Source of the DNA: Bacteroidales bacterium | GTDB taxonomy: Bacteria; Bacteroidota; Bacteroidia; Bacteroidales; UBA10428 | Assembly: GCA_016936215.1 (NCBI GenBank) | Contig: JAFGPL010000072.1 | Coordinates: 1 to 36,439 of the forward strand | Length of the DNA: 36,439 nt | Direction of reading: 5' to 3' | Shown here: positions 470 to 15,533 of the stretch, piece after piece | How positions within the stretch are numbered: the first letter of the stretch is position 1 | Layout: each line of letters opens with the position of its first letter | Program-made: the position numbers and the translations under genes | Notes under the pieces: model-generated | Database searches by the model: none | Told to the model about the DNA's origin: nothing | What the model saw: only the letters and a program-made list of their open reading frames with translations

Positions 470-3034
470 TTATTTTACAGTAAATGTAATGTTTTTGGTA
501 AACCGGTTTCCCTTGCTGTCCATTACCGTAAATGTGCAAATGTAACTGCCTTGTATATCGGAAGTGTAAAAAGAAATATTTTCTGTTGAATTTGATGCAA
601 GATTGAGTTCCGGTTTCCAGAGTAACGTTGTCCTGCTGTCAAAACCGGGAATATTATCAATGGAATAATCGGGGCTGTAAAATTCATGATCGAGCATGAG
701 AATATCTTTCTGAATTTCGTGCATAGTCCCAAGGCTTGTGCTTTCATCGCTCCTTAAAGTAAAGAGCTCAATAACGCCCATACTGTTACGCGCAGAATAA
801 CGCTGAATATCAGCGGGTGATGTTGAAATAGAAATATCCCTTATATCTTTCGGTGAAATGCTGTTGAGAATATCTGCACTGGTACCGAGTGCAATACCGT
901 CAACAACTATCAGCGCACCATGCTGGGTGCCGGCAGAATTTTCATGACCGATGAAAACAATTTCGCCGTTTACCAGCTTGTAACTTTTCATTTCAGATAT
1001 AATATCTGCAACACTTTGATAGAGCGAATATTTTTTATAATTATAGCCTTTTCCTGTATACGCTTTTTTTCTCTTTTCTTTACCGTGACTATATTTACCT
1101 GAATATAAGAGCAATGGATTTTTGTACTTTATAAGGTCCAGTAATTGTTCAAATTGCCATTCTTCTTTGTTTGTATATGAGTTAGTAGTAATATTCTCTG
1201 AATAAAGATCATAGATGCTGTAGTTTTCAATTGACCTGCCGGTTTCATCAGCAATGGCAACATTGAGCAGGTCGTAATTGATTATCCTGTTATCGAATTT
1301 TACATTGAAAATGCCCCTTACATCTGAGGATGCCTGAAATATGCGCAGATCAGGGGTATGAATGATTTTCACTTTTGCATTTTCCAGTGGGTTGTTCTTC
1401 TTGTCAACAACCTGGCCGGTGATGCCATCCTGGTTGTAATAGGGCAGTGAATATTTATAGCCGTAATTGTATAATCCAGACAGGGGAAGAGATTTCACGG
1501 TATGTGTGAGCATAATCAGGTCTAAATTTTCATCGGTTAAAGATTGACTGAAATATGCGGGTTTCGCCTCTTTTAGCCAGATATAATAATGAAGATAATC
1601 TTGCAACGAAATCTCCGAACTGCTGATCCGATTGCTTTTGCATACAGATATTGTTGTGGAAATATTTAATGCTGAAGGGTTTTTCAGTTCAATAAATACC
1701 TTTTCTTTTTTCCCATAGGTGTCTTTCAGAAGATTAACCTCTAATGTTTTTTCAGGTTTTTGTGCTGGTGCAGCAATATTCCTTGAAGCAATAATATTTG
1801 CCGAATCATCAAGAAGGGTGCATTTTATGATGCCTTCTGTAAATAATCCCAAAGGTGCCTTGATGCGCTGAGAACCTGAAAATTCGGTACCAGCAGCCCA
1901 AACGATTTTGCCGTTTTGCTCAAGCACAATGGTTGCTTTGGTTAAGTTTTTATCATCGGCAGTTTGTAATAAAAATGAGATATCTTCCTTATTATTTCCG
2001 GAATAATTCAAAAGAATTTCACCTGAAGATACTTCAGGCAGGGGATAGAATACATTTTCGGTTACCGGTTTAATGATCCGGAACCTGTAACGATGATTCC
2101 CGGGCTTGAATGTGAACACTCCCAGGCCCAAATAGCTGCTGCGAACCCTGTTAATCTGCTTACCGGTCTCATCCATCAGGAAACCTTCGATATCTACCGG
2201 GAAGCCATAACTGTCTATTGCTTTGAAGGCTACCTTGTTCTCATATCCTGCAATGAGTTTTCCGCCTTCGGGGAGAAACTGAATTTCAATATTTTTTCTT
2301 CTAACCGGCAGGAGTTCAACAAATGTTTCTGATTTCTTTTTATGTTTTACAGTAAACTCTATCCATAACAGATCGGAATCTGTTTCAGGGGGAAGTTCAA
2401 AACTTATACTGCAATTACCGTTTTCATCGGTTTGAGATCGCCCGTGATAAATAATCCTTTTTTGTGAACGGCATATAAATGAAAATTTTGTATTGGGCAA
2501 AGGATTTTTGTCAGGAGATGAGAGTTTTACACTGGCCATTATATCGCTTCCGGGGTAGTAAAGATACTCGGGAAACGATACAGAAAGGTTAAAATGTCGG
2601 TCAATATTTTTGCTGATAATAATTTCCCGGCAGAATGCACTGTTCACTGGCAGGTTTTTCATCCAGCCCGTGTAACCAATCAGCCGGTATTTTCCCTCGG
2701 TAAGGTATGCCGGCAGCATCAGGTAGCCTTTCGATTCATTATCAATCAAAGGGTAACGCAGGTTTAGCACTTGTTTGCCAAAAACATCCAAAAGTTTAAT
2801 GTTCAGGTCGCTGCCTAATTCTTTGCCGTTGAGCGTATTTTCGGCTATTGCCCTGAACCAGAGCTCTTCGCCCGGCTTATAAAATGTTTTGTCGGTAATT
2901 AGGTATACATGTTCCGAAGGGAAAGCCCTGTTATATTTTTCTGCATTTTCAACGAGCACTTCCGGTAAGCCGGTCTCATTTTTTTGACCTGATATGAGTA
3001 TAACCAGCAGAAATGTTGAAATAAAATATTTCAT
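470..3034 (-). CDS. Exported macroglobulin-like (MG2) protein with TonB plug-like segment, no beta-barrel
   Basis: This is an 854-residue exported protein with a hydrophobic signal sequence at about 2-16. Residues 42-140 read as an MG2-type macroglobulin domain (VYLITDKTFYKPGEELWFRA). Residues 250-300 carry the FLPEGGKLIAGYENKVAFKA block typical of Bacteroidota MG2/TonB-plug proteins. Residues 537-585 form a carboxypeptidase-regulatory beta-sandwich (GITGQVVDKKNNPLENAKVK). Residues 704-760 resemble the TonB receptor plug (LIVVDGIALG, then MGVIELFT). The plug is followed by only about 95 residues, ending in a beta-rich block (LLWKPELNL onward) shared with the 582-residue protein at 9082-10830. 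There is therefore no room for a 22-strand barrel. It is the last gene of the sigma/anti-sigma operon, 11 bases after its neighbour. A role in surface sensing or envelope assembly is inferred; the ligand is unknown. Confidence 0.75.
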   Translation of the reverse strand: MKYFISTFLLVILISGQKNETGLPEVLVENAEKYNRAFPSEHVYLITDKTFYKPGEELWFRAIAENTLNGKELGSDLNIKLLDVFGKQVLNLRYPLIDNESKGYLMLPAYLTEGKYRLIGYTGWMKNLPVNSAFCREIIISKNIDRHFNLSVSFPEYLYYPGSDIMASVKLSSPDKNPLPNTKFSFICRSQKRIIYHGRSQTDENGNCSISFELPPETDSDLLWIEFTVKHKKKSETFVELLPVRRKNIEIQFLPEGGKLIAGYENKVAFKAIDSYGFPVDIEGFLMDETGKQINRVRSSYLGLGVFTFKPGNHRYRFRIIKPVTENVFYPLPEVSSGEILLNYSGNNKEDISFLLQTADDKNLTKATIVLEQNGKIVWAAGTEFSGSQRIKAPLGLFTEGIIKCTLLDDSANIIASRNIAAPAQKPEKTLEVNLLKDTYGKKEKVFIELKNPSALNISTTISVCKSNRISSSEISLQDYLHYYIWLKEAKPAYFSQSLTDENLDLIMLTHTVKSLPLSGLYNYGYKYSLPYYNQDGITGQVVDKKNNPLENAKVKIIHTPDLRIFQASSDVRGIFNVKFDNRIINYDLLNVAIADETGRSIENYSIYDLYSENITTNSYTNKEEWQFEQLLDLIKYKNPLLLYSGKYSHGKEKRKKAYTGKGYNYKKYSLYQSVADIISEMKSYKLVNGEIVFIGHENSAGTQHGALIVVDGIALGTSADILNSISPKDIRDISISTSPADIQRYSARNSMGVIELFTLRSDESTSLGTMHEIQKDILMLDHEFYSPDYSIDNIPGFDSRTTLLWKPELNLASNSTENISFYTSDIQGSYICTFTVMDSKGNRFTKNITFTVK

Positions 3035-3045
3035 GAAATTGAAAA

Positions 3046-4599
3046 TTACTGTTCCTGGGTCCTTGCCACAGGAGCAACAGGTATGATATCGGGCCCCGGC
3101 TTTTTATTAAGCTTCAGTATGGTTTCAAGTAAAGGTTCATCGGGCAGGATGATATTCTCCTCGCCCCAAAAGTTTTCATCTGTATCTGCAAGTTGTTTCA
3201 CGAGGATATCATTGGGTTTGGATATTTCATCTGCCTTAAACCGCTGTACCGGGTGGCTGACTTTCTCTGTGATTACAAATTCAGATACCGACGTGAAGGT
3301 GGCTGAAAGGTCACGCCTGTTTTTGCGTTTGTTGATATTACGTTTCACAAAAATTCCCACTTCGCTGCGAACATAGTCAAGGTTCCATTTTTCGTTAATC
3401 TTGCGATAGTTTACATAGTATTTTGCAAACAATGTTTTAACTTTCAGGTCAAGCGGGCTTTTTACCACGTACATATTATGCGCATAACCAATGCCTTTGG
3501 GACTTATCTCGAATTCTGCCTTAACGATTGCATACGATTCTTTATCAATAAATAGGCTGCCTTTATACATCGGAAACTGAACGCCGTCCCGCTGGTCGAA
3601 CCTGATAATATAAACCGGTGTGCCACGGTATTTTGATATGGCATCGAGGTGATAGTCATAAAACTCAAAATTTTCTTTATCAAGAAAACTCACACCGTTT
3701 TTTATTACATCCAGTTTGAAATTGTTATACAATCCTCCCTGTACGATGTAATTGATGTATTCCTGCGACTTAACATTTGAGCCTTTCCGGCCCTTTTCTA
3801 TTTTAACCTGATCGGCACGCGGGGAAAGGTAAGATTCCTTATAGACTTTAACCATCGCTTCAGACAATGCAATATAACGGTTATCCTGACGGGTTGATTC
3901 CCTGAAAAAAGCCGTTAGGAGCGAAGGTGTAACATCGTAGTTATGTGAAATGTTTTCCAGGGCTTTTTCTATTATTTCCAAAGGTTTCACGGGTTTTACC
4001 CATACTTCTTTGATTTCATGTTCCTCTGGCTTAAGGGCAATATCAATACCAAACGAATCTGCCAGTGCGATCGGAATTTTTTCTGCCTGGTAACCAATAA
4101 ATGTAATACAAATTGTATCGGTGGAATGTATCTTTTTAAGGTTGAGTGCAAAATTTCCTTCAGCATTTGAGATGGTGCCAACACTACGGTCCATTAAAAA
4201 AATATTGGCAAACTGCACGGGTTCTCTCGATTGTGCGTCAATAATCTTTCCTCTGATGCGGTAGTTTTTTTGATTGCCCTGGAAAGTGGACGGGATGAGA
4301 AGCACCTTATCGTTTTTGGCATAATACTTTACATTTTCATCTGCAAACATCTGGTCGAGGTAATCCCTAACAGTAAGTTTGTTGCCGGTGAGTGTGACTT
4401 TTTTCGAGAGATGTATCCTGGAACTGTATGTAAAAGTAAAACCGCCACGGGAACTTAGCTCGTTGAGCAGGGTTTCCACAGTACCCGATTTTTGCGAAAT
4501 CTTAACCTTTTTATCGAGAAGTGTTTTTTGGGCTGATGTAAGGCATGGTGGCAATAAGAACACCAGTAAAAGCAGATATCTTGCAAAGATTTGCCCCAT
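3046..4599 (-). CDS. Exported STN-domain and carboxypeptidase-regulatory-domain protein
   Basis: This is a 517-residue protein with a signal peptide ending near SAQ (residues 1-24). Residues 30-102 form an STN domain (KKVKISQKSGTVETLLNELS), the module by which TonB-dependent transducers contact FecR. Residues about 112-190 form a carboxypeptidase-regulatory-like domain (RIRGKIIDAQSREPVQFANI, with IGYQAEKIPI). The remaining 300 residues include a beta-rich segment (VYIIRFDQRD, then GSLFIDKESYAIVKAEFE) reminiscent of DUF5686 or LolA-like folds. No plug and no barrel are present. It follows FecR by 46 bases and precedes the plug-bearing protein by 11 bases, so it is probably cotranscribed. I infer that it supplies the STN signalling domain to the FecR at 4646-5644. 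The function of the C-terminal part is not recognised. Confidence 0.75.
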   Translation of the reverse strand: MGQIFARYLLLLVFLLPPCLTSAQKTLLDKKVKISQKSGTVETLLNELSSRGGFTFTYSSRIHLSKKVTLTGNKLTVRDYLDQMFADENVKYYAKNDKVLLIPSTFQGNQKNYRIRGKIIDAQSREPVQFANIFLMDRSVGTISNAEGNFALNLKKIHSTDTICITFIGYQAEKIPIALADSFGIDIALKPEEHEIKEVWVKPVKPLEIIEKALENISHNYDVTPSLLTAFFRESTRQDNRYIALSEAMVKVYKESYLSPRADQVKIEKGRKGSNVKSQEYINYIVQGGLYNNFKLDVIKNGVSFLDKENFEFYDYHLDAISKYRGTPVYIIRFDQRDGVQFPMYKGSLFIDKESYAIVKAEFEISPKGIGYAHNMYVVKSPLDLKVKTLFAKYYVNYRKINEKWNLDYVRSEVGIFVKRNINKRKNRRDLSATFTSVSEFVITEKVSHPVQRFKADEISKPNDILVKQLADTDENFWGEENIILPDEPLLETILKLNKKPGPDIIPVAPVARTQEQ

Positions 4600-4645
4600 G
4601 AGTTAAGGTTTTCGGTTTAGTTAAGCAGAGAGAACACTAATTTAG

Positions 4646-5644
4646 TTATTTTCTTACAATTATATAGTCTTGTCCATGCTCAATTTTTATCGCTGTTGTC
4701 ATTTCTATTTCTTTCAGGATTTCATTCAGGGGTTGGTTCTCAAATACCCCTGTAATGCTGTCCTTCAGGTTGATATTCAGAATAAGTTTTTTATCAAAAT
4801 AATTTGCCAGGGTGCTTAAAACATCCGCTGTGGGTGTTTTAAAGAACTCGAACCGTCCTGTTTTCCAGGAAAGAAAATTCAGGTCGCTGTTTTCACCATA
4901 AATTATTTTTTTGGTTGCATACTCGAAAGAAGCAGTCTGGTTTCTGATAAGCTGTACCTGGTTTTTCCTGTTTTTTGTTTCATAGACCGAAACCCTGCCC
5001 GAAACCACTGTAACCTTTAGTGCACATGTGTCTTCTTTTACATTGAAACTGGTACCCAGAACCTGGATGGTGGTATTGCCTGTTCTGATGACAAAAGGCA
5101 GGCTGGCGTTTTTTGATACATCAAAAAAAGCTTCCCCGCTGAAAAACAGTTCACGGTTGTTCTTATTGAACCTGTTATTGTAACGTAATGCAGAGTTTTT
5201 ATTTAAGGTAATCAAAGATCCGTCAGGCAGCGTTACTTCACGACTGTTGGCATCGGTGGTTACTACTATGGATTCGTGCCCTGACATCAAAGAGGTGACC
5301 TTATGCAATCCAAATGCCAGTCCTGCAGCAATAATAATGATTATTGCCGCACGATAAAGCATGGTTGTGAGCGGCAGTTTTCTGGTACGTTGTTTAAGCC
5401 GGGGTTTAAGCCGTGAACTTACTGTTGCCCAGTCGGCAACGGTATCCAGCATTTTATATTTTTTGAGTGCTGAAGAGGTTTCCCATATTTTTCTTACCTG
5501 CTCAAATTCTCTCCCGGTAACATTTCCCGATTCTTCATCGGATAGAAAATCATCTTTCTCTTTATCACTTAACTCGTTGGAAAGAAATCTTACAATTTTT
5601 TCAAAATCCATTTGAGAAGTTTTTGATGTTCGTTTATAAGACAT
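4646..5644 (-). CDS. FecR-family anti-sigma factor
   Basis: This is a 332-residue inner-membrane anti-sigma regulator. The N-terminal 90 residues are cytoplasmic and charged. One membrane segment lies at about 93-113 (YRAAIIIIIAAGLAFGLH). The periplasmic FecR domain starts around 130 with VTTDANSREVTLPDGSLITL and continues through FSGEAFFDVSKN and the VLGTSFNV motif. A C-terminal DUF4974-like region (about 265-332, TPTADVLSTLANYFDKKL) resembles an STN fold and is the usual contact site for the receptor's signalling domain. It sits 23 bases after the sigma gene, the standard sigma/anti-sigma pairing. Known family role: it holds or activates its sigma factor according to a signal relayed from the outer membrane. 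Confidence 0.93.
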   Translation of the reverse strand: MSYKRTSKTSQMDFEKIVRFLSNELSDKEKDDFLSDEESGNVTGREFEQVRKIWETSSALKKYKMLDTVADWATVSSRLKPRLKQRTRKLPLTTMLYRAAIIIIIAAGLAFGLHKVTSLMSGHESIVVTTDANSREVTLPDGSLITLNKNSALRYNNRFNKNNRELFFSGEAFFDVSKNASLPFVIRTGNTTIQVLGTSFNVKEDTCALKVTVVSGRVSVYETKNRKNQVQLIRNQTASFEYATKKIIYGENSDLNFLSWKTGRFEFFKTPTADVLSTLANYFDKKLILNINLKDSITGVFENQPLNEILKEIEMTTAIKIEHGQDYIIVRK

Positions 5645-5667
5645 TTAAGTAGATTTAAACACGTATT

Positions 5668-6240
5668 TTATAAAGCCATTAAAAAACAAGCCAAAACAAG
5701 CATCTTTGGATAAATATTACCGCGCAATATCTTCAGCGCTTTGCTAATCTGGGTTTCGACTGTTCTTTTCGAGAGGTTTAGCGTTTCTGCAATGTCGCTG
5801 TTGGTCATGCCATCAAACCTGTTCATTTTAAAAATTTTCCTGCATTGCCCTGGTAATTTTTCAATTTCGGTATAAATTTTATGTTCCAGTTCAGAAACGT
5901 TCATTTCCTCTTCAGAAAAGGTATATTGTTCTTCACTCTGGTTTTTTATCACCTGGTGATGGTGTTCCCTCACGGCAACCTGGTTAATATGATTAATACA
6001 ACTATTATACACCGACCGGTAAAGGTAAGATTTGAAATTGGTTTCAATATGAAGGTTAAACCTGCGTTCGTAAAGCTTGACAAATAAATCCTGTACTATT
6101 TCCCTTGCAATTTCAAGATCGTGTACATATTTGTTTGCAAAAAAGGTCAGCCTTGCATAATAATCGTAAAATACTGATTTATAAAAATTTTCGTCTCCTG
6201 ACTGAAGCTTTCTGATGATTATGTCGAGTTCTCCGGACAA
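5668..6240 (-). CDS. ECF-type RNA polymerase sigma-70 factor (FecI-like)
   Basis: This 190-residue sigma factor has region 2 at about 20-90 (FYDYYARLTFFANKYVHD, then EIVQDLFVKLYERR) and region 4 at about 125-178 (IEKLPGQCRKIFKMNRFDG, then the helix-turn-helix NSDIAETLNLSKRTVETQIS). These are the two regions that bind the -10 and -35 elements. The open frame has no ATG near its start: the first usable codon is TTG at 6240-6238, an in-frame stop lies 15 bases further upstream, and region 2 leaves no room for a later start. TTG is therefore the likely start. It leads a four-gene operon with FecR, and its likely targets are this operon and possibly the TonB receptor operon at 9-15 kb. Confidence 0.92.
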   Translation of the reverse strand: MSGELDIIIRKLQSGDENFYKSVFYDYYARLTFFANKYVHDLEIAREIVQDLFVKLYERRFNLHIETNFKSYLYRSVYNSCINHINQVAVREHHHQVIKNQSEEQYTFSEEEMNVSELEHKIYTEIEKLPGQCRKIFKMNRFDGMTNSDIAETLNLSKRTVETQISKALKILRGNIYPKMLVLACFLMAL

Positions 6241-8963: not shown

Positions 8964-9083
8964 AGCTGTTCTTTAAAAATCGCAGACGAGGCGCGTGAAG
9001 TCCGAAAAAAGGGAGTTTACCATGCGTAAATGACTTTTTGAAGACGAGTGCAACGAAGTATGCGGACTTTAAAGACAGAAGCT
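8964..9083. repeat. Palindromic intergenic repeat element
   Basis: Outer arms AGCTGTTCTTTAAA (8964-8977) and TTTAAAGACAGAAGCT (9068-9083) are imperfect inverted repeats. Inside, a short hairpin TTTAC-CATGC-GTAAA lies near 9015-9030. GAAGTCCG near 8997 pairs with CGGACTT near 9063, and GACGAG occurs twice (about 8985 and 9043). The right arm touches the stop codon of the minus-strand gene at 9082. I recognise the general form from other Bacteroidota intergenic regions, from memory only. It may end the two convergent transcripts that meet here. Confidence 0.55.
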
Positions 9084-10830
9084 ATTTAACTTTAATGGTA
9101 CAACTTCCTTCGAGTATTGTGCCATCAGCAGTAACACCTCTTACCAGTACCTTAAAATCGCCTTTTAAGTCGGAGGTCTTAAAGCTGAATTCCGATGTAT
9201 TATCAACTTTCACAACTGCAGAAGGGTTCCAGTAAAGACAGTTTCTGAAATCGGGGATACGGTCTTCTTTTTCGGTATTGTCATCGGCAACCGGGACTGG
9301 TTCACATGCGCTTTGCTGATAACCGTCATAATTAAAGAAATAGGCGTTTTCGGGGAGTGTTATTCCCCCGAAGTCTTTTTTCCGCGAAATGAAGTTTAGC
9401 ACCCCACCGTACAGATAATCACCTTTTGCATATATCCTGTCAATAATATCAATGCGTTCAAGTTTGTCTGGTGAAGTTTTTAAGAATGATTCAAAATCAT
9501 CAATAGGGATATTGTCAATCAGGATTAGTGGTTTAAATATTTCAATATCTGTGTAAAAGCCGTTTGTTTTAAAATAAAAAGCATCTTTTCTTTTTACCAC
9601 TGCAATTTCATGTACAAGTTCGAACAGCACCTCTTCTATGGTCGGCAGGTCAATATACTGGTCAATATAGATAATGTTCGCCGGTTTACCATAGAAATAT
9701 CCGGCCTTTTGATGGTTGCTGTTAAGGGTGTCTTCTTTGGTTGGGTTCCTGTAGGCCATTTTTACCTGTGAATTGAATACAATTTCCTGTGCAGTTTTTT
9801 TGTCTATGGCTGATAACGAAAAAGGCTGCAGGTTATTTAGGTGACCGTTGCCGGCATACTCTTCATCCACGCGTATTTCGTAGTTTTCATCAAGTCCCGG
9901 GGCAAGCGTGATGTACATTTCTGTTTCACCGTTAAACGGTTTCAGGTCGAAGACAAATCCTCCATCAGGCCGGGTTACATAACTGTAAAAATCAGAAAAA
10001 CCACCAAACACCGAAAGCATCATCTGGAGATTTGCAACACCTGTTCCTGTGGCTTTTTCAACAATGCTTCCCGAGAGGGACAATCCCCTCATATCGGGAA
10101 TATACCTGAGGGGGTATGCATTAGCCGGTCGTCGGGTAGGGCAGGGCAGTAAGCCGTAATTTACCGAATCGGTTAGGCCTGGCCTTATCACAGTAATACA
10201 ATAATTATCCGGCAGCCCGTATGCTTTCTTGTTTATACCAATTGTAAGATTAACCTTTTGCCTTGTGCCCGGATTTGCATTATCTGCTTTAACGCTAATT
10301 ATATCTTTCTTCACTACAAGTCCATTTCCTGTTACCGGTTTTGTATCAGTATTTGTTGCTAATACTGAAGCTTGTAATGCTGTCTCTTTAGGATTAAAAA
10401 TTTGTAGTCTTATTACCGGAAAATTTTCTTCACCAAAATTACGCATCCACCTGGTATATGCCCTTAAATAGTAGTAGCCTGTGAGCAGGTTTCCGGGAAT
10501 CTCAATATTACCCCCAACGGCATTTTCGGTAACCGGAAATTTTGTTTGCAATACCGGCATTCCATCTGGTTTTAGCAATTCTACGTAAAGCGTTTTGCTC
10601 CATGTGGAAAGCTGATTACGGTTTTCGCCGGTTCTGAATGCAGCAAACAAGCAGTTTTCACCTGCTGCATAAAAGGTACGGTCAGTAAATAAAACGAACT
10701 GTTCCTGCAAACCCGGGCCTGCCTTAATGGTTGTGTCAATAATTGTTGACAAAGGCCTGGCGTAAATGTTACTGCCTGACAGTATAACATTAACTATTGT
10801 TAAGGATAATATTTTAAAAATGCTCTTCAT
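9082..10830 (-). CDS. Exported macroglobulin-like protein with TonB plug-like segment, no beta-barrel (second copy)
   Basis: This 582-residue protein has a signal sequence at about 5-25 (cleavage near YAR). An MG2-like domain lies at about 45-150 (FVLFTDRTFYAAGENCLFAA, then LLTGYYYLRAYTRWMRN). A carboxypeptidase-regulatory-like repeat is near 245-300 (LSGSIVEKATGTGVANL). A plug-like segment is near 436-484 (ILIDNIPIDDFESFLK, then YGGVLNFISRK), and the final beta-rich block starts near 530 (LYWNPSAVVKVDN). The same end block and domain order occur in the 854-residue protein at 470-3034, so the two are paralogues; this one lacks the central repeats. It is the last gene of the TonB-receptor operon, nine bases after DUF4249. 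Function is unknown; an accessory role in receptor assembly or cargo capture is inferred. Confidence 0.75.
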   Translation of the reverse strand: MKSIFKILSLTIVNVILSGSNIYARPLSTIIDTTIKAGPGLQEQFVLFTDRTFYAAGENCLFAAFRTGENRNQLSTWSKTLYVELLKPDGMPVLQTKFPVTENAVGGNIEIPGNLLTGYYYLRAYTRWMRNFGEENFPVIRLQIFNPKETALQASVLATNTDTKPVTGNGLVVKKDIISVKADNANPGTRQKVNLTIGINKKAYGLPDNYCITVIRPGLTDSVNYGLLPCPTRRPANAYPLRYIPDMRGLSLSGSIVEKATGTGVANLQMMLSVFGGFSDFYSYVTRPDGGFVFDLKPFNGETEMYITLAPGLDENYEIRVDEEYAGNGHLNNLQPFSLSAIDKKTAQEIVFNSQVKMAYRNPTKEDTLNSNHQKAGYFYGKPANIIYIDQYIDLPTIEEVLFELVHEIAVVKRKDAFYFKTNGFYTDIEIFKPLILIDNIPIDDFESFLKTSPDKLERIDIIDRIYAKGDYLYGGVLNFISRKKDFGGITLPENAYFFNYDGYQQSACEPVPVADDNTEKEDRIPDFRNCLYWNPSAVVKVDNTSEFSFKTSDLKGDFKVLVRGVTADGTILEGSCTIKVK

Positions 10831-10839
10831 TTCATTTTC

Positions 10840-12012
10840 TTATTGCCAGAATTCAGGCCGTTCCAGTGTCCCCCCTCCCTTTGTACAATCAAAACATTCC
10901 TGGTCTGTAAGGTCCCATGGGCCTTCAGCAAGTCCAGACTCGTTAATAAGGTATATCGGGTATTCATCTTCTGTAAAAGTCCTTAAGTGCTCTTCGAGCT
11001 GCTCAGGAGTATAATCGTATGGCTGGCACTTGTAAAAGTCGAAAGGTATTTCACCTGTATTTCTGAAAAAGAACCTTTTCTCCTTTATTTCTGTAGCCCA
11101 GAAATATCCGAGTACACGCTCTTCAGGGTCGCTTACACATCGGATATTCCCGATAATCCTTATAGGTTGGGCATCATACAGTCCGCCTGCATCCTGAAGG
11201 TTTTGCTGCATTTTGTTCCAGAATTCGAATGCCGAATCGCTTAAAGAAAACTGCCTGACAAGGGCGCTGTATTTTATCTGCAGTTTTTCTTTATTATCGG
11301 CAACAAAAGTCAACGGTCCTTTATTGATTTTGTTCGACGCATAATTTCTTGTTGACATCGTCATCATATCTTTCACCCTTCCGTTTTTAAAACATACAAA
11401 CAGGGAATCGGACATCATTCCTTCCATAAAATTAATTGTTCCGTCGAAATAGTCGCTTATAAGATATGAAGCATGGTATTCCCATGTCTCATCAATCTCC
11501 CATTTCAGGTTGGTGACATCATCTTCAGAGGCCTCCGTGTAAATGTAAAGCTGAATTCCATTAACACAATTCATAAAAGGGTCGTCTGACTCTATTGTTT
11601 TTGCCTCATATGTAATGTTTTCAATGCCCGGGCAGGGTTTCATTTCATCAAATCCCGAAGCATATGTTTTACCCTCTTTTGTTACCACTTCTACCCTGAA
11701 ACGGTTCCCAACCGACAGGTATTCCTGTGCAAACCAGCAACGGTAGAATCCCGGTAAATACTCCTGGTATTGGAACACATTTCCCTTGTCATCATAAACG
11801 CTTACGCTACAGTTTTTTTCACGAACAATAACCGGATTGTCGTATGATGTAGACCACGAAATTTCAAGATAATGATATCCTTCAAGGTTAGTGATCTTAC
11901 CGCTTATCACCAGCAACTCCTTCGATTCTTCAATATCGGGATTGAAAGGCTCGATGCACCCTGTAAGAAGCGCAACCGGAAGCCAGTATTTCAGTAATCT
12001 AATCACTTGCAT
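10840..12012 (-). CDS. DUF4249 family lipoprotein
   Basis: This 390-residue protein has a lipoprotein signal peptide with lipobox LLTGC (Cys 19), so it is probably lipid-anchored in the outer membrane or on the surface. The following segment, SKELLVISGKITNLEGYHYL, then NCSVSVYDDKGNVF and FRVEVVTKEGKTY, is the two-beta-sandwich pattern of DUF4249. The C-terminal half is less conserved and contains the Cys-bearing CFDCTKGG near the end. Its start overlaps the end of the TonB-dependent receptor gene by 14 bases, so translation is probably coupled. DUF4249 proteins are commonly encoded beside such receptors. A role as surface partner, comparable with SusD but of a different fold, is inference. 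Confidence 0.85.
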   Translation of the reverse strand: MQVIRLLKYWLPVALLTGCIEPFNPDIEESKELLVISGKITNLEGYHYLEISWSTSYDNPVIVREKNCSVSVYDDKGNVFQYQEYLPGFYRCWFAQEYLSVGNRFRVEVVTKEGKTYASGFDEMKPCPGIENITYEAKTIESDDPFMNCVNGIQLYIYTEASEDDVTNLKWEIDETWEYHASYLISDYFDGTINFMEGMMSDSLFVCFKNGRVKDMMTMSTRNYASNKINKGPLTFVADNKEKLQIKYSALVRQFSLSDSAFEFWNKMQQNLQDAGGLYDAQPIRIIGNIRCVSDPEERVLGYFWATEIKEKRFFFRNTGEIPFDFYKCQPYDYTPEQLEEHLRTFTEDEYPIYLINESGLAEGPWDLTDQECFDCTKGGGTLERPEFWQ

Positions 12013-14782
12013 AATTTCCTAACTTTATGTTCCACGATAAGGTCACGATGGGTGTCCCGAAAATAGACATCTTGTAACCGTTTATCCTGCCGTTTTCCGA
12101 AACGAAATATACAGAGTAAGCGTTTTTCCTTCCGGTAATATTATAAAAATTCAGCATCCAGTAAGAGTGTGCAAATTTTTTCGCTTTCAGGTTCCCTTCA
12201 ATATTTATCGAGAGGTCTGCCCTGAAGTAATCTGGTATACGGTATTCGTTTCTTGCAGAGTAATGCATGTATTCTATCCCTTCGATGTTGTAAATTGAAA
12301 TGGGAAAGGTGGCAGGCCGGCCGGTATTGTACACGATATTGGCTGCAAGGCTCAACTGGCGGTTCAGCCGCAGGTTCATCACGCCGTTCACGGCATGTGG
12401 TTTATCATAGTTTGATGGGTATTTCAGACCATCGTTGATCCTGCCCCAGAAATACGGGCTGTTTACCAGAATTTCCGACCTTGAATAACAATATGACAAC
12501 CAGCCTGTAAGCTTGCCGGAGTTTTTCCTCAGCATCAGTTCAAGGCCATAGGCCGACTGTTCTCCCTGCAGGGCGAGTGATTCAATTTTATCGGCTGAAA
12601 GAAAATCTGCCCCGTCTTTATATTCAACAAGGTTTAAAGTCTTTTTATAATAAATTTCAGAAGAAAAATTCATCCCCGATTTGGGCATATCTTTATAATA
12701 ACCCAGTGAAACCTGGTCTGCCAGAGGTGGTTCCATATGGTAATCGCAGAGTTTCCACTGGTCGGTGGGCGAAAGCGCGATGGTATTACTAAGCATAAAC
12801 AGGTATTGCCTCGTGCGGTTGTATGAAAGCTTCACAGAGCTGTTGTTGCCTGTGCGGTAGTTGGCCGCTAACCTGAACTCGGGCCCTGAATAAAATTTTA
12901 CGAGCTGGTTGTCAGAAAAACTTTTGGTACCGGTTACATAATTTTCGGTTTTGGGGCTTCCCGGGTTATAATCATATACATCGGCAGCGCCCAGATAGCC
13001 ATACATACTGTACCGCAAACCCAGGTATATCGTGAACCTGTTCGACAACTGGTATTCATCGGAGAAATAAAGCGCCGATTCCACTCCTTTTTCAGCACCG
13101 AGCGCTTCAGGCGTCCTTTCCGATTCGCTGCCGGCAGGAATAACACTGCCCCGGTCGAGGCCATAGCGTATGATATTGGCCCCGAAGTTAAAAAGATGTT
13201 TCTCCATCGGCACCCAGGTATAATCAGATTTCAGCTCGTAATGATCAATCTGGTAATTATGAGAAAGGCCCGACCTGGCAATGGTGGTATCGGTGTTGGA
13301 AAAGCCATAGCGGGCAACAATTGCAGTGGTGTTAGCGGATAGCTTTGAAGAAAACTGGTGGTTCCAGTCAACTGAGGCCCCGGTATTAAAATAACCATAC
13401 CTGTTAGTCCCGGCAAGGTTGAAATCGTCGTCGCTGTAATAGCCAAAAATCCTGATGAAGTTACGGGAATCCAATTCAATTGAAATGTTTCCGGCAATGT
13501 CATAAAATGAGGCGTTGCTCTTTCTCAGATCTGCATCGTGGAGCTTCGACAGTATCCAGTCTGAATAGGTGGTACGTGCAGAAATAATAAACGAACTTTT
13601 GTCTTTAACGATCGGGCCTTCAGCTGCTAAATGACCGGTTATAGGGCTCAGCCCGCCCCTGGCCGTGTATCTTTTCATATTTCCCTGGCGCGAGGTAATA
13701 TCGAAAAAAGATGCCAGCCTGCCGCCATATTTCGCCGGGATATTGCATTTGTATAGCGAGAAATCATTCACGATCTCTGAATTAAACGCAGAAAAGAAAC
13801 CAAAAAGGTGAGAGGTATTGTACACCGGAACTTTATTGATAAAAAACATATTCTGGTCGGCAGCGCTGCCGCGGATATTAAACCCTGACGACCCTTCGCC
13901 GACATTCTGCACGCCGGGCAGCATCTGGGCAACCTTAAGCAAATCACGCTCTCCCATTACAGCTGGGATCTCTTTAATCGTTTTAAATGAGAGGCGGTCG
14001 TAGCCCATCTGTAAACCCCGAACATTGTCGAATTTGTTTGCTTTGATCGTTACCTCGTTTATGGCGATCAGTTTTCTTCCCATTTCAACCTCAAAACTGC
14101 CGGCTGCATTTACATCCAGCTTATAATGCAGTTCTTCCATACCCATGCAATTGATTACAGCGTTGTATGTGCCCGGGGACAACGACATGATAAAATGCCC
14201 GTTGAGGTCGGTGGCATATCCCTTTTCAAGCTCTTCGATATAAATGGTCGCGCCAATAAGGGCTTCCCCGGTTTCTTTATCAGTAACCTTTCCGTTTACA
14301 ACAGCGGTTCTGCCTGATGTATGGGCACCGGGGATTCCAATGGTAATGGTTTCGCTGGTGCCGTTTCTCCTTCCTTCTTTATAATTCAGCTCTGCATTTG
14401 TCAGTCCTTCCTGACTGCCGTTATTCGGGTCATCTTTTCCGGCAGTATGGTCAATATATTCAGGTAAGGTTGCTGAAAGCTGTATTCCTTTGGTTATAAA
14501 TACATTGTTGTTTTCATCAATATAAAAATAGAGGCCGGTACCTGCCAAAACCTGTTCAAGTAGATCGTTTAGGCTTATTTTTTCCCCGACAGCAGTTACC
14601 CTGATGCCTTCGACCCATAAGGGCTTAAACCAGAACTTTACATTACCATGCTGTTCGAGGCCGAAGGCAAAATCCTCGAAAGACACATCGCGATAGTTGC
14701 CGTTGAAATATATAATAGTATCGTTTGCCGAAACAGACAAATACAGGAAAAGCGCCGTGAGAAACAGAATAATTTTATTCAT
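11999..14782 (-). CDS. TonB-dependent receptor with STN and carboxypeptidase-regulatory domains
   Basis: This is an outer-membrane receptor of 927 residues, starting at the ATG at 14782, where MNKIILFLTALFLYLSVSA gives a good signal peptide. The frame stays open 20 codons further upstream but without signal-peptide character. Order: STN domain (about 25-100), carboxypeptidase-regulatory domain (VVNGKVTDKETGEALIGATI), plug domain (IPAVMGERDLLKVAQMLPGV, GFNIRGSAADQNMFFINKV), then a barrel of about 600 residues ending in a beta-strand with VTLSWNIKL. Its start overlaps the upstream gene by eight bases and its end overlaps DUF4249 by 14. An STN domain normally marks a transducer that signals to a FecR; none is in this operon, so the FecI/FecR pair at 4.6-6.2 kb is a candidate partner. 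The substrate is unknown. Confidence 0.9.
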   Translation of the reverse strand: MNKIILFLTALFLYLSVSANDTIIYFNGNYRDVSFEDFAFGLEQHGNVKFWFKPLWVEGIRVTAVGEKISLNDLLEQVLAGTGLYFYIDENNNVFITKGIQLSATLPEYIDHTAGKDDPNNGSQEGLTNAELNYKEGRRNGTSETITIGIPGAHTSGRTAVVNGKVTDKETGEALIGATIYIEELEKGYATDLNGHFIMSLSPGTYNAVINCMGMEELHYKLDVNAAGSFEVEMGRKLIAINEVTIKANKFDNVRGLQMGYDRLSFKTIKEIPAVMGERDLLKVAQMLPGVQNVGEGSSGFNIRGSAADQNMFFINKVPVYNTSHLFGFFSAFNSEIVNDFSLYKCNIPAKYGGRLASFFDITSRQGNMKRYTARGGLSPITGHLAAEGPIVKDKSSFIISARTTYSDWILSKLHDADLRKSNASFYDIAGNISIELDSRNFIRIFGYYSDDDFNLAGTNRYGYFNTGASVDWNHQFSSKLSANTTAIVARYGFSNTDTTIARSGLSHNYQIDHYELKSDYTWVPMEKHLFNFGANIIRYGLDRGSVIPAGSESERTPEALGAEKGVESALYFSDEYQLSNRFTIYLGLRYSMYGYLGAADVYDYNPGSPKTENYVTGTKSFSDNQLVKFYSGPEFRLAANYRTGNNSSVKLSYNRTRQYLFMLSNTIALSPTDQWKLCDYHMEPPLADQVSLGYYKDMPKSGMNFSSEIYYKKTLNLVEYKDGADFLSADKIESLALQGEQSAYGLELMLRKNSGKLTGWLSYCYSRSEILVNSPYFWGRINDGLKYPSNYDKPHAVNGVMNLRLNRQLSLAANIVYNTGRPATFPISIYNIEGIEYMHYSARNEYRIPDYFRADLSINIEGNLKAKKFAHSYWMLNFYNITGRKNAYSVYFVSENGRINGYKMSIFGTPIVTLSWNIKLGNYASD

Positions 14783-15533
14783 CTGAGGCTTCCTGTTTAG
14801 GCTTTTCAAAAAACTGTGAACAATAGCCAAGCAGTTCACCAAGAACTGTATCGCCCGCAGTTTTAAGTTTTACCTGGTTTTGTTTCATGTATTTTCTTAT
14901 TGCAGCTTCATTACCCGGAAATAGTTTCAGGAAGGAACCGTTGCCTTTTAAAGGTAAAGGCAGGCTGTCTTTCAGAAGGTACATTTTTTTCTTCTCTCTG
15001 GAATATTCGTAAGCAATATTTGAAAATGAGCCGGCAGGCAACAGGTCTTTTTTCCATTCAATAAGAAGGGTGAGGCTCCCTGAGGTTATTACCTGGAAAT
15101 ATTTTTCTCCTGTTAGGGAGAAATGGTATTTTTTGAAACGTTTACCCAGTAGTTCAAATTCAGAGATAAACTCATTGCTTAGCACCACCTGGTTCATACC
15201 CCCGTGTGAATAGGTGTATTCAAGGATCACCTGCTGGTTGCAAATATCATATTTTAAAAGTATGTCGCGATATTCAACGCCGTTGAGGTTTATCCATCCC
15301 TCCGATGATTTTTCGCTTATGAGAAAAGGGTTGCCTGTGGCCGAATAGTGCAAATTGTAGTACTTCATTCCGTTTACCAGGTTCTGATCTTGCTTATACA
15401 ACCGGGCAAAATATTTTTCCAGTGCATAAGGCGACCAGGTATCCTGGCCCTGGCCGGCTAACTTACCTGGCGGGCTGCTAAAAAACAGGACAGCGGCAAT
15501 GAACTTTATTAAGAAACTGAAATACCCCCTCAT
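14775..15533 (-). CDS. Exported protein of unknown function, first gene of TonB-receptor operon
   Basis: This 252-residue protein has an N-terminal hydrophobic segment (about 5-20, FSFLIKFIAAVLFFSS) and is probably secreted into the periplasm. The rest is rich in aromatic and charged residues with alternating beta-type patterns (GWINLNGVEYRDILLKYDI, VILEYTYSHGG), with a helical, lysine-rich C-terminal third (AAIRKYMKQNQVKLK). I do not recognise a family. Its TAA stop overlaps the start of the TonB-dependent receptor gene by eight bases, so translational coupling is likely. Its product may act with that receptor, which is inferred from position only. Confidence 0.7.
   Translation of the reverse strand: MRGYFSFLIKFIAAVLFFSSPPGKLAGQGQDTWSPYALEKYFARLYKQDQNLVNGMKYYNLHYSATGNPFLISEKSSEGWINLNGVEYRDILLKYDICNQQVILEYTYSHGGMNQVVLSNEFISEFELLGKRFKKYHFSLTGEKYFQVITSGSLTLLIEWKKDLLPAGSFSNIAYEYSREKKKMYLLKDSLPLPLKGNGSFLKLFPGNEAAIRKYMKQNQVKLKTAGDTVLGELLGYCSQFFEKPKQEASDE

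Follow-up and report, generated by a model that had tools for sequence, protein, structure and literature searches.

We study a stretch of 36,439 nucleotides from a Bacteroidales bacterium (contig JAFGPL010000072.1 of assembly GCA_016936215.1), called the window in what follows, which is one contig (C132) of a draft genome of 5.3 Mb. The minus strand of the window carries an operon of four genes that encode, from 5' to 3', a sigma factor, a FecR protein, a protein of 517 amino acids and a protein of 854 amino acids, with intergenic gaps of 23, 46 and 11 bases. FecR-type anti-sigma factors are usually seen as the partners of nutrient receptors. Here no TonB-dependent barrel transducer is present: none of the four genes encodes a receptor barrel. 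We propose that the operon is a switch made of an extracytoplasmic function (ECF) sigma factor and FecR, in which a barrel-less STN protein, the one of 517 amino acids, is the periplasmic input and its half-barrel is the sensor; we give this whole reading a probability of about one half. The predicted folds suggest that what such a relay senses is internal to the envelope, a lipid or a lipoprotein, and not an extracellular nutrient.

The features of the operon are collected in Table 1. The sigma factor scores 168.6 bits against the TIGR02985 cut-off of 126.4 and is therefore of FecI type, and in the FecR protein both PF04773 and the C-terminal, STN-like PF16344 exceed their cut-offs. By analogy with FoxR and FoxA (PMC11637429), this C-terminal domain would be the expected docking site for the STN of the relay. 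A first interpretation of the stretch, made from its letters only and called here the sequence-only reading, had described a FecI/FecR operon of four genes without a barrel; family matches, gene coordinates and two AlphaFold2 models confirm it, a 22-strand barrel being absent from the models of both the 517- and the 854-amino-acid proteins.

Table 1. Features of the operon (positions in the window; residues are those of the encoded protein)
Feature	Positions	Strand	Basis
ECF sigma factor, FecI type, 190 amino acids, TTG start	5668..6240	-	TIGR02985; Sigma70_r2 and r4_2
FecR-type anti-sigma factor, 332 amino acids	4646..5644	-	PF04773, 78.1 bits; PF16344, 32.9 bits
FecR C-terminal STN-like domain	4658..4852	-	PF16344 match
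Barrel-free relay protein, 517 amino acids: signal-peptide-like N terminus, STN, carboxypeptidase-regulatory-like domain (CTL), predicted LolA-like half-barrel	3046..4599	-	AlphaFold2, fold searches
STN signalling domain, residues 29-109 (predicted)	4273..4515	-	VIA structure alignment of AlphaFold2 model
CTL, SusC N-terminal extension type, residues 111-196	4012..4269	-	VIA; PF13715
LolA/LolB/RseB-type half-barrel, residues 204-459 (predicted)	3223..3990	-	Foldseek and VIA on predicted model
Macroglobulin protein with inserted CTL-like and plug-like segments, 854 amino acids	470..3034	-	AlphaFold2; C3/C5/alpha-2-macroglobulin fold
MG2 domain, residues 43-117	2684..2908	-	PF01835, 33.8 bits, above cut-off 32.8
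CTL-like segment, residues 538-579	1298..1423	-	PF13620, 23.2 bits, under cut-off 32.3
Plug-like segment, residues 664-765	740..1045	-	Profile comparisons; Plug matches in relatives

The AlphaFold2 model of the 517-amino-acid protein, with 35 relatives in the alignment, has a mean predicted local distance difference test score (pLDDT) of 82.0 and a predicted template modelling score (pTM) of 0.57; the low pTM would be fitting for domains joined by flexible linkers. Structure alignment with VIA places the STN at residues 29-109: the matches include 6ovk_B, from the PupB/PupR complex, and 6i97_B, FoxA, both at Z 8.6, and 2o5p_B, FpvA, at Z 8.2. The Pfam STN model gives 14.8 bits in the window copy, under the cut-off of 28.4, and 40.6 bits, above it, in one relative (L063); in the window copy the STN of a periplasmic partner is thus recognized by its predicted fold, the sequence by itself staying below threshold. 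The CTL, at residues 111-196, is a clear match to CarbopepD_reg_2 (PF13715, 57.4 bits) and aligns to 9hfj, a SusC N-terminal extension, with Z 13.0 and a root-mean-square deviation (rmsd) of 1.9 over 80 residues.

The third domain, at residues 204-459, is the one that replaces the barrel. In the full-length AlphaFold2 model, from which all the fold matches of this domain come, the top Foldseek match in the PDB is MucB, an RseB (6in9_A, E 1.5e-7); after it rank two RseB entries and additional LolA-family entries, the further matches including 3buu_A of the LolA family (E 1.9e-6), RseB 3m4w_D (E 7.8e-6) and 2p4b_B (E 3.4e-5). VIA gives Porphyromonas gingivalis LolA3 (9tp6_A, Z 9.5, rmsd 4.2, 185 residues), a Vibrio LolA-family protein (3bk5, Z 9.1), a DUF1329 protein (Z 8.9) and P. 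gingivalis LolB (9tpm, Z 8.5). The predicted half-barrel fold is that of the Bacteroidota proteins LolA, LolB and LolA3, which passages of PMC11885536 and PMC13103446 describe as single-domain carriers, whereas here the domain sits in a sigma-factor operon, and its sequence profile retrieves no LolA from the PDB. Mean column identity is 51% in the half-barrel alignment (A4) and 41% in that of the STN (A5), and long intact reading frames are conserved in the 35 aligned members of the family. There is also a likeness to DUF5686 (PF18939), which would have the CTL and part of the half-barrel in common with the family: two of the 35 members match it, neither above the cut-off and the window copy not among them, and residues 241-373 of relative L020 align to DUF5686 positions 54-184 with E 1.4e-9. 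The profile of alignment A1 also matches several frames of roughly 800-840 amino acids, across about residues 109-367. The sequence-only reading had the STN and carboxypeptidase-regulatory domains right, the STN fold being predicted when the protein is modelled singly, as well as the absence of a barrel, and overlooked the half-barrel.

The design recurs. Relatives of the 517-amino-acid protein are found at E 1e-30 or better in 28 of the 60 genomes searched, including all 23 of the same family. Gene order was counted in 69 named loci, which hold 41 genes with an STN and 56 genes without. The STN-bearing gene stands immediately after FecR in 39 of 41 cases; the two exceptions are a gene at a contig edge and a locus, L141, in which an STN-retropepsin-PDZ gene is interposed. 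No TonB-dependent receptor is recognized within two same-strand genes of any of the 41, recognition being by phmmer with two receptor queries; the gene next to the copy in L137 is barrel-sized (1145 amino acids) and unlabelled, and Pfam finds no receptor domain in it. A periplasmic relay separate from transport, one of the suggestions of the sequence-only reading, is thereby borne out as a conserved design and not the loss of a barrel; relatives that always keep a barrel gene in the operon are not what these 41 copies present. The gene after the STN gene encodes a macroglobulin-plug protein in 8 cases, an M49 peptidase (DPP3-like) in 3 and another protein in 7; it lies on the opposite strand in 17 cases and beyond the contig in 6. 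Since the macroglobulin-plug gene stands next in only 8 of the 35 copies whose next gene is visible, it is not an obligatory member of the operon.

In the STN-less lineage the arrangement differs: none of the 56 genes follows FecR, and 28 lie directly upstream of a sigma gene. On a tree of 87 CTL and half-barrel segments, built without the STN columns, a single change separates the 40 STN-bearing rows from the 47 STN-less rows, and the split has a support of 93 (SH-aLRT, a Shimodaira-Hasegawa-like approximate likelihood ratio test, with a short search); several rows have long branches, flagged by the tree tool. Shuffling the labels yields about 29 changes on average, and none of 500 shuffles is as low as one. 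The presence or absence of the STN is one old split into two lineages.

How unusual is a FecR gene in such surroundings? Of the 15 FecR places found in the source genome, 8 are directly followed by a SusC-like receptor with an STN, 1 by another FecR that itself precedes a receptor of this kind, 1 by a receptor in which no STN is detected, and 5 have no receptor next, one of them cut by the end of a contig. An order-wide sample comprises 87 FecR loci from 25 other genomes; it takes in every listed place with a FecR-sized frame and omits frames that are barrel-sized or fragments. The next gene has an STN and the length of a barrel protein at 50 loci, and an STN, a CTL and the half-barrel at 4, in four genomes; at 9 it is a complete STN gene of less than 750 amino acids, two of these resembling broken receptors. 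At the remaining loci the STN is cut by an edge (8), there is no STN (12), a receptor lacks the STN (2), or the edge is reached (2).

The proposed mechanism borrows from two families of systems. FecI-FecR-FecA, with FoxI-FoxR-FoxA and PupI-PupR-PupB, resembles the operon in its ECF sigma factor, its FecR with an STN-like C-terminal domain and the STN partner in the next gene; the difference is that here there is no TonB-dependent barrel, and the STN is joined to a CTL and a LolA-like half-barrel. According to passages of PMC11637429, the FoxA signalling domain without its signal binds the C-terminal domain of FoxR and protects FoxR from proteolysis, and is apparently cleaved off the barrel; the paper also raises the possibility of contacts between STN domains and PDZ proteases. 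In the control of sigma-E and AlgU by RseA-RseB and MucA-MucB, as in the window, a soluble periplasmic protein with a LolA-like half-barrel is encoded behind the anti-sigma factor; here, in contrast, the anti-sigma factor is of FecR type and not of RseA/MucA type, and contact would go via the STN. A passage of PMC7400510 has MucB protecting MucA until a lipid enters the cavity of the half-barrel, and it is a counterpart of this lipid-triggered release that we propose. In the resting state, the STN of the relay would dock on the C-terminal domain of FecR and shield FecR from proteolysis. The half-barrel would act as the sensor for a lipid, a lipoprotein acyl chain or a similar ligand that accumulates in the periplasm; when the ligand binds there, the STN would release FecR, FecR would be cleaved, and the sigma factor would be freed. 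Titles and openings of abstracts, in a search that left most subscription journals outside, yielded no prior paper about STN proteins that lack a barrel and have a LolA-like domain.

The fourth protein of the operon has a different architecture. In its AlphaFold2 model (mean pLDDT 83.7, pTM 0.76), residues 22-854 align to complement C3/C5 and to alpha-2-macroglobulins, with Z up to about 15, which gives the protein the predicted ring of macroglobulin domains. Unlike these proteins, it stops at residue 854, lacks the thioester motif CGEQ and has CTL-like and plug-like insertions; a sequence search of the PDB with it returns zero matches. With chains limited to the C3c beta part, the alignment goes as far as residue 531; with complete C3/C5 chains it extends to residue 854, reaching chain positions near 811-830. 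The CTL-like and plug-like residues in between are thus an insertion, at a point that we take to be that of the anaphylatoxin or bait segment. Pfam Plug has no match in the window copy; among 22 aligned relatives, 8 match it with E values of 0.05 or less, the best being 1.8e-17. A profile built from the plug-like part in 10 operon copies matches the corresponding profile from 11 non-operon homologues with a probability of 99.7%, and the latter matches true receptor plugs with 90.8%; the direct comparison of the operon copies with receptor plugs fails (1.2%). Operon copies match the outside homologues and the homologues match receptor plugs, and on these profiles the segment is probably a diverged plug. 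The sequence-only reading had seen a macroglobulin protein with a plug-like segment and no barrel: the MG2 domain and the lack of a barrel stand, and the plug, reached by indirect matches, is probably a diverged one. Its further idea, a single transducer divided between an STN protein and a plug protein, finds no support: the STN protein ends in a predicted LolA-like half-barrel, and the other protein has a macroglobulin fold.

Upstream of the STN-less genes there is a promoter-like element, ATAGGGTA...TCWT, or [AG]TAGGGTAW-N15-TC[AT]T, with a fixed spacing, which would be read by the neighbouring sigma factor. A single scoring was used throughout, genes being labelled by profile, and four family genes have too little upstream sequence. 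A score of at least 9.5 is reached before 23 of the 25 STN-less genes that are followed by a sigma gene (18 of 25 at 16 or more) and before 5 of the 27 other STN-less genes, counts that are in part in-sample, the model having been trained on 18 upstream sites of STN-less genes; it is reached before none of 41 STN-bearing genes and none of 43 sigma genes. A background of 538 genes, with the same spacing, gives 7 at 9.5 and 3 at 16. In 2.4 Mb of loci, which are enriched for the family, so that only the contrast with the reversed pattern counts, the strict pattern occurs 37 times (before 32 family genes, 2 macroglobulin-plug genes and 1 FecR gene, and 2 times elsewhere) and its reverse 2 times. 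Eight whole genomes hold 15 occurrences versus 5 for the control; 5 of the 15 precede STN-less family genes and 1 precedes a macroglobulin-plug gene. Nineteen of the genomes searched have a free-standing STN-less gene. The 5 of them that have the element all have an STN-bearing sensor of the sister type elsewhere; of the 14 without it, 13 have no sensor or only that of the window type, and in L123 the type of the sensor is ambiguous. Another dyad upstream of sigma genes, TGGGG-N16-AAACC (20 of 37), was rejected: it turned out to be the end of the reading frame of the STN-less gene in front. At one locus (L129:2132-3172) the element, with a score of 19.8, precedes a 346-amino-acid gene just upstream of a sigma-FecR-STN operon, and at another (L231) it precedes the FecR gene.

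The element also stands before macroglobulin-plug genes outside the operon: 4 of 21 score at least 16, against 3 of 538 in the background (p 4.8e-5), and with the threshold lowered to 9.5 and any one of three spacings allowed, 10 of 21 and 16 of 538 qualify. These 21 genes were selected by length, 775-895 amino acids; longer macroglobulins, short ones of 582-594 amino acids and copies that are cut or have 912-937 amino acids (G022, G041, G045) were excluded after the first scans. Because the element precedes these 4 outside copies, and the lineage of the window has the gene in the operon itself, the macroglobulin-plug gene is tied to such circuits, by position in the window lineage or by promoter elsewhere.

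Assuming that the element marks outputs, the sister circuit would produce the STN-less paralogue, with its CTL and half-barrel, which probably carries or binds the same ligand, and, in part of the genomes, the macroglobulin-plug protein, whose gene the window lineage keeps within the operon. This leads to a broader and tentative picture, which we consider somewhat less likely than not: an envelope-homeostasis circuit of Bacteroidota with an STN-bearing sensor, a response made of the STN-less sister and the plug-bearing macroglobulin, and a signal that would be a lipid or lipoprotein in periplasmic transit. As part of the same picture, the circuit would fuse two known guards of anti-sigma factors, the STN contact of the FecA type and the lipid-sensing half-barrel of RseB. 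If true, a FecR switch could also monitor the interior of the envelope, as a recurrent class in which a half-barrel replaces the receptor; two separately known guarding mechanisms would be joined in one protein; Bacteroidota would have a concrete candidate for lipid or lipoprotein sensing; and the promoter element and the two families of output genes would be directly testable.

Several observations weigh against the proposed switch. The window operon has no element (score -4.7), and the only occurrence of the strict pattern in the source genome is at the sister locus (C22); the promoter evidence therefore belongs to the sister circuit. A promoter of the window type, sought in 11 regions upstream of sigma genes, gave nothing clearly above chance: a candidate dyad in 5 of the 11, against maxima of 3-4 in five shuffles, consists of A/T runs and is not counted. 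The STN profile, searched against the PDB, retrieves at the top an unrelated chain, 1ivz (E 0.0047), with PupA, 2a02, next (E 0.0051). As for the half-barrel, apoB and lipovitellin also score near Z 8 in VIA, MucB and RseB are not among its best 50 rows, the sequence profile of the domain retrieves neither LolA nor RseB from the PDB, and PF17131 (LolA_like) matches only one of 35 members, weakly (E 0.015). The link to LolA and RseB is made via the predicted fold, and not via a sequence profile.

Other explanations share part of this evidence. The relay could serve a TonB-dependent receptor encoded elsewhere, with the 517-amino-acid protein as an adaptor between receptor and FecR. The window offers a candidate at 11999-14842, with a weak STN (18.9 bits, under the cut-off), a CTL and a Plug; CTL domains are common to SusC-type receptors, and the contig yields no FecR besides that of the operon. 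We consider such an adaptor unlikely, as no receptor is recognized within two same-strand genes of any of the 41 STN-bearing copies and the protein has its own STN and a large, well-conserved half-barrel. Nor is this particular receptor favoured as the partner of the operon: relatives with mapped loci do not keep it beside the operon, except in G001, which has a set of receptor, DUF4249 and MG2 genes. In the window this set, which adjoins the operon in G001, occupies positions 9082-14842 as a row of a short macroglobulin protein (582 amino acids), a DUF4249 protein and the STN-CTL-plug receptor. It is equally improbable, in our opinion, that the 517-amino-acid protein is an effector, a periplasmic carrier of lipids or lipoproteins whose contact with FecR or a related STN-like domain would be no more than docking. 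Such a carrier would be in keeping with the STN-less paralogue, which has the same CTL and half-barrel and stands alone in gut Bacteroides, Phocaeicola and Parabacteroides (L156-L162, L164, L167); it would not explain why it is exactly the STN-bearing genes that are found behind FecR (39 of 41, and 0 of 56 for the STN-less ones), nor why one change on the tree separates the two lineages.

That the macroglobulin-plug protein senses protease attack or envelope damage seems less probable again. Its CTL-like and plug-like segments do lie between the end of the C3c beta part and the alignment at about 811-830; against such a sensor stand its presence after only 8 of 35 STN genes, the absence of CGEQ, and the sister element that its homologues bear elsewhere, as outputs would. 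Finally, since a barrel-length STN receptor is the usual next gene (50 of 87 FecR loci), the operon could be the remnant of a FecIRA system that lost its barrel. The long frames intact in 35 aligned members, a gene order conserved in many records and a half-barrel of a different fold where the barrel would be make such decay very improbable.

Two kinds of neighbours of the operon deserve mention. An M49 peptidase (DPP3-like) is found behind it in several relatives (L049:5584-7629, L106, L107, L165), after the macroglobulin gene in G001 and immediately after the STN gene in genus g4. In an uncultured Draconibacterium (L141:6409-7977), the protein encoded between FecR and the STN-CTL-LolA gene has 522 amino acids, with an STN/FecR_C-like N terminus (21.7 bits, under the cut-off), a retropepsin-type aspartyl protease and a PDZ domain. 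Homologues of this protein occur in 48 of 198 genomes at E 1e-40; since their alignments mostly begin near query residue 125-146, they are mostly without the STN part.

Other FecR genes also have neighbours of different kinds. In the source genome, a receptor-less locus (L018:5003-12001, contig C218) starts with a sigma factor, FecR and a 404-amino-acid STN/CTL protein, followed by a GldM-like protein of 341 amino acids and a gene of at least 989 amino acids; L278 has a similar order and terminates in a SusC-like gene with a CTL. Also in the source genome (L183:204-1004, contig C177), FecR is followed by a protein of 266 amino acids with a TonB C-terminal domain (70.9 bits). The FecR operons of L263, L274 and L276 encode short STN proteins: there is a weak match to a small outer-membrane barrel in L274, and the gene that follows encodes a type IX secretion tail in L263 and RCC1 repeats in L276.

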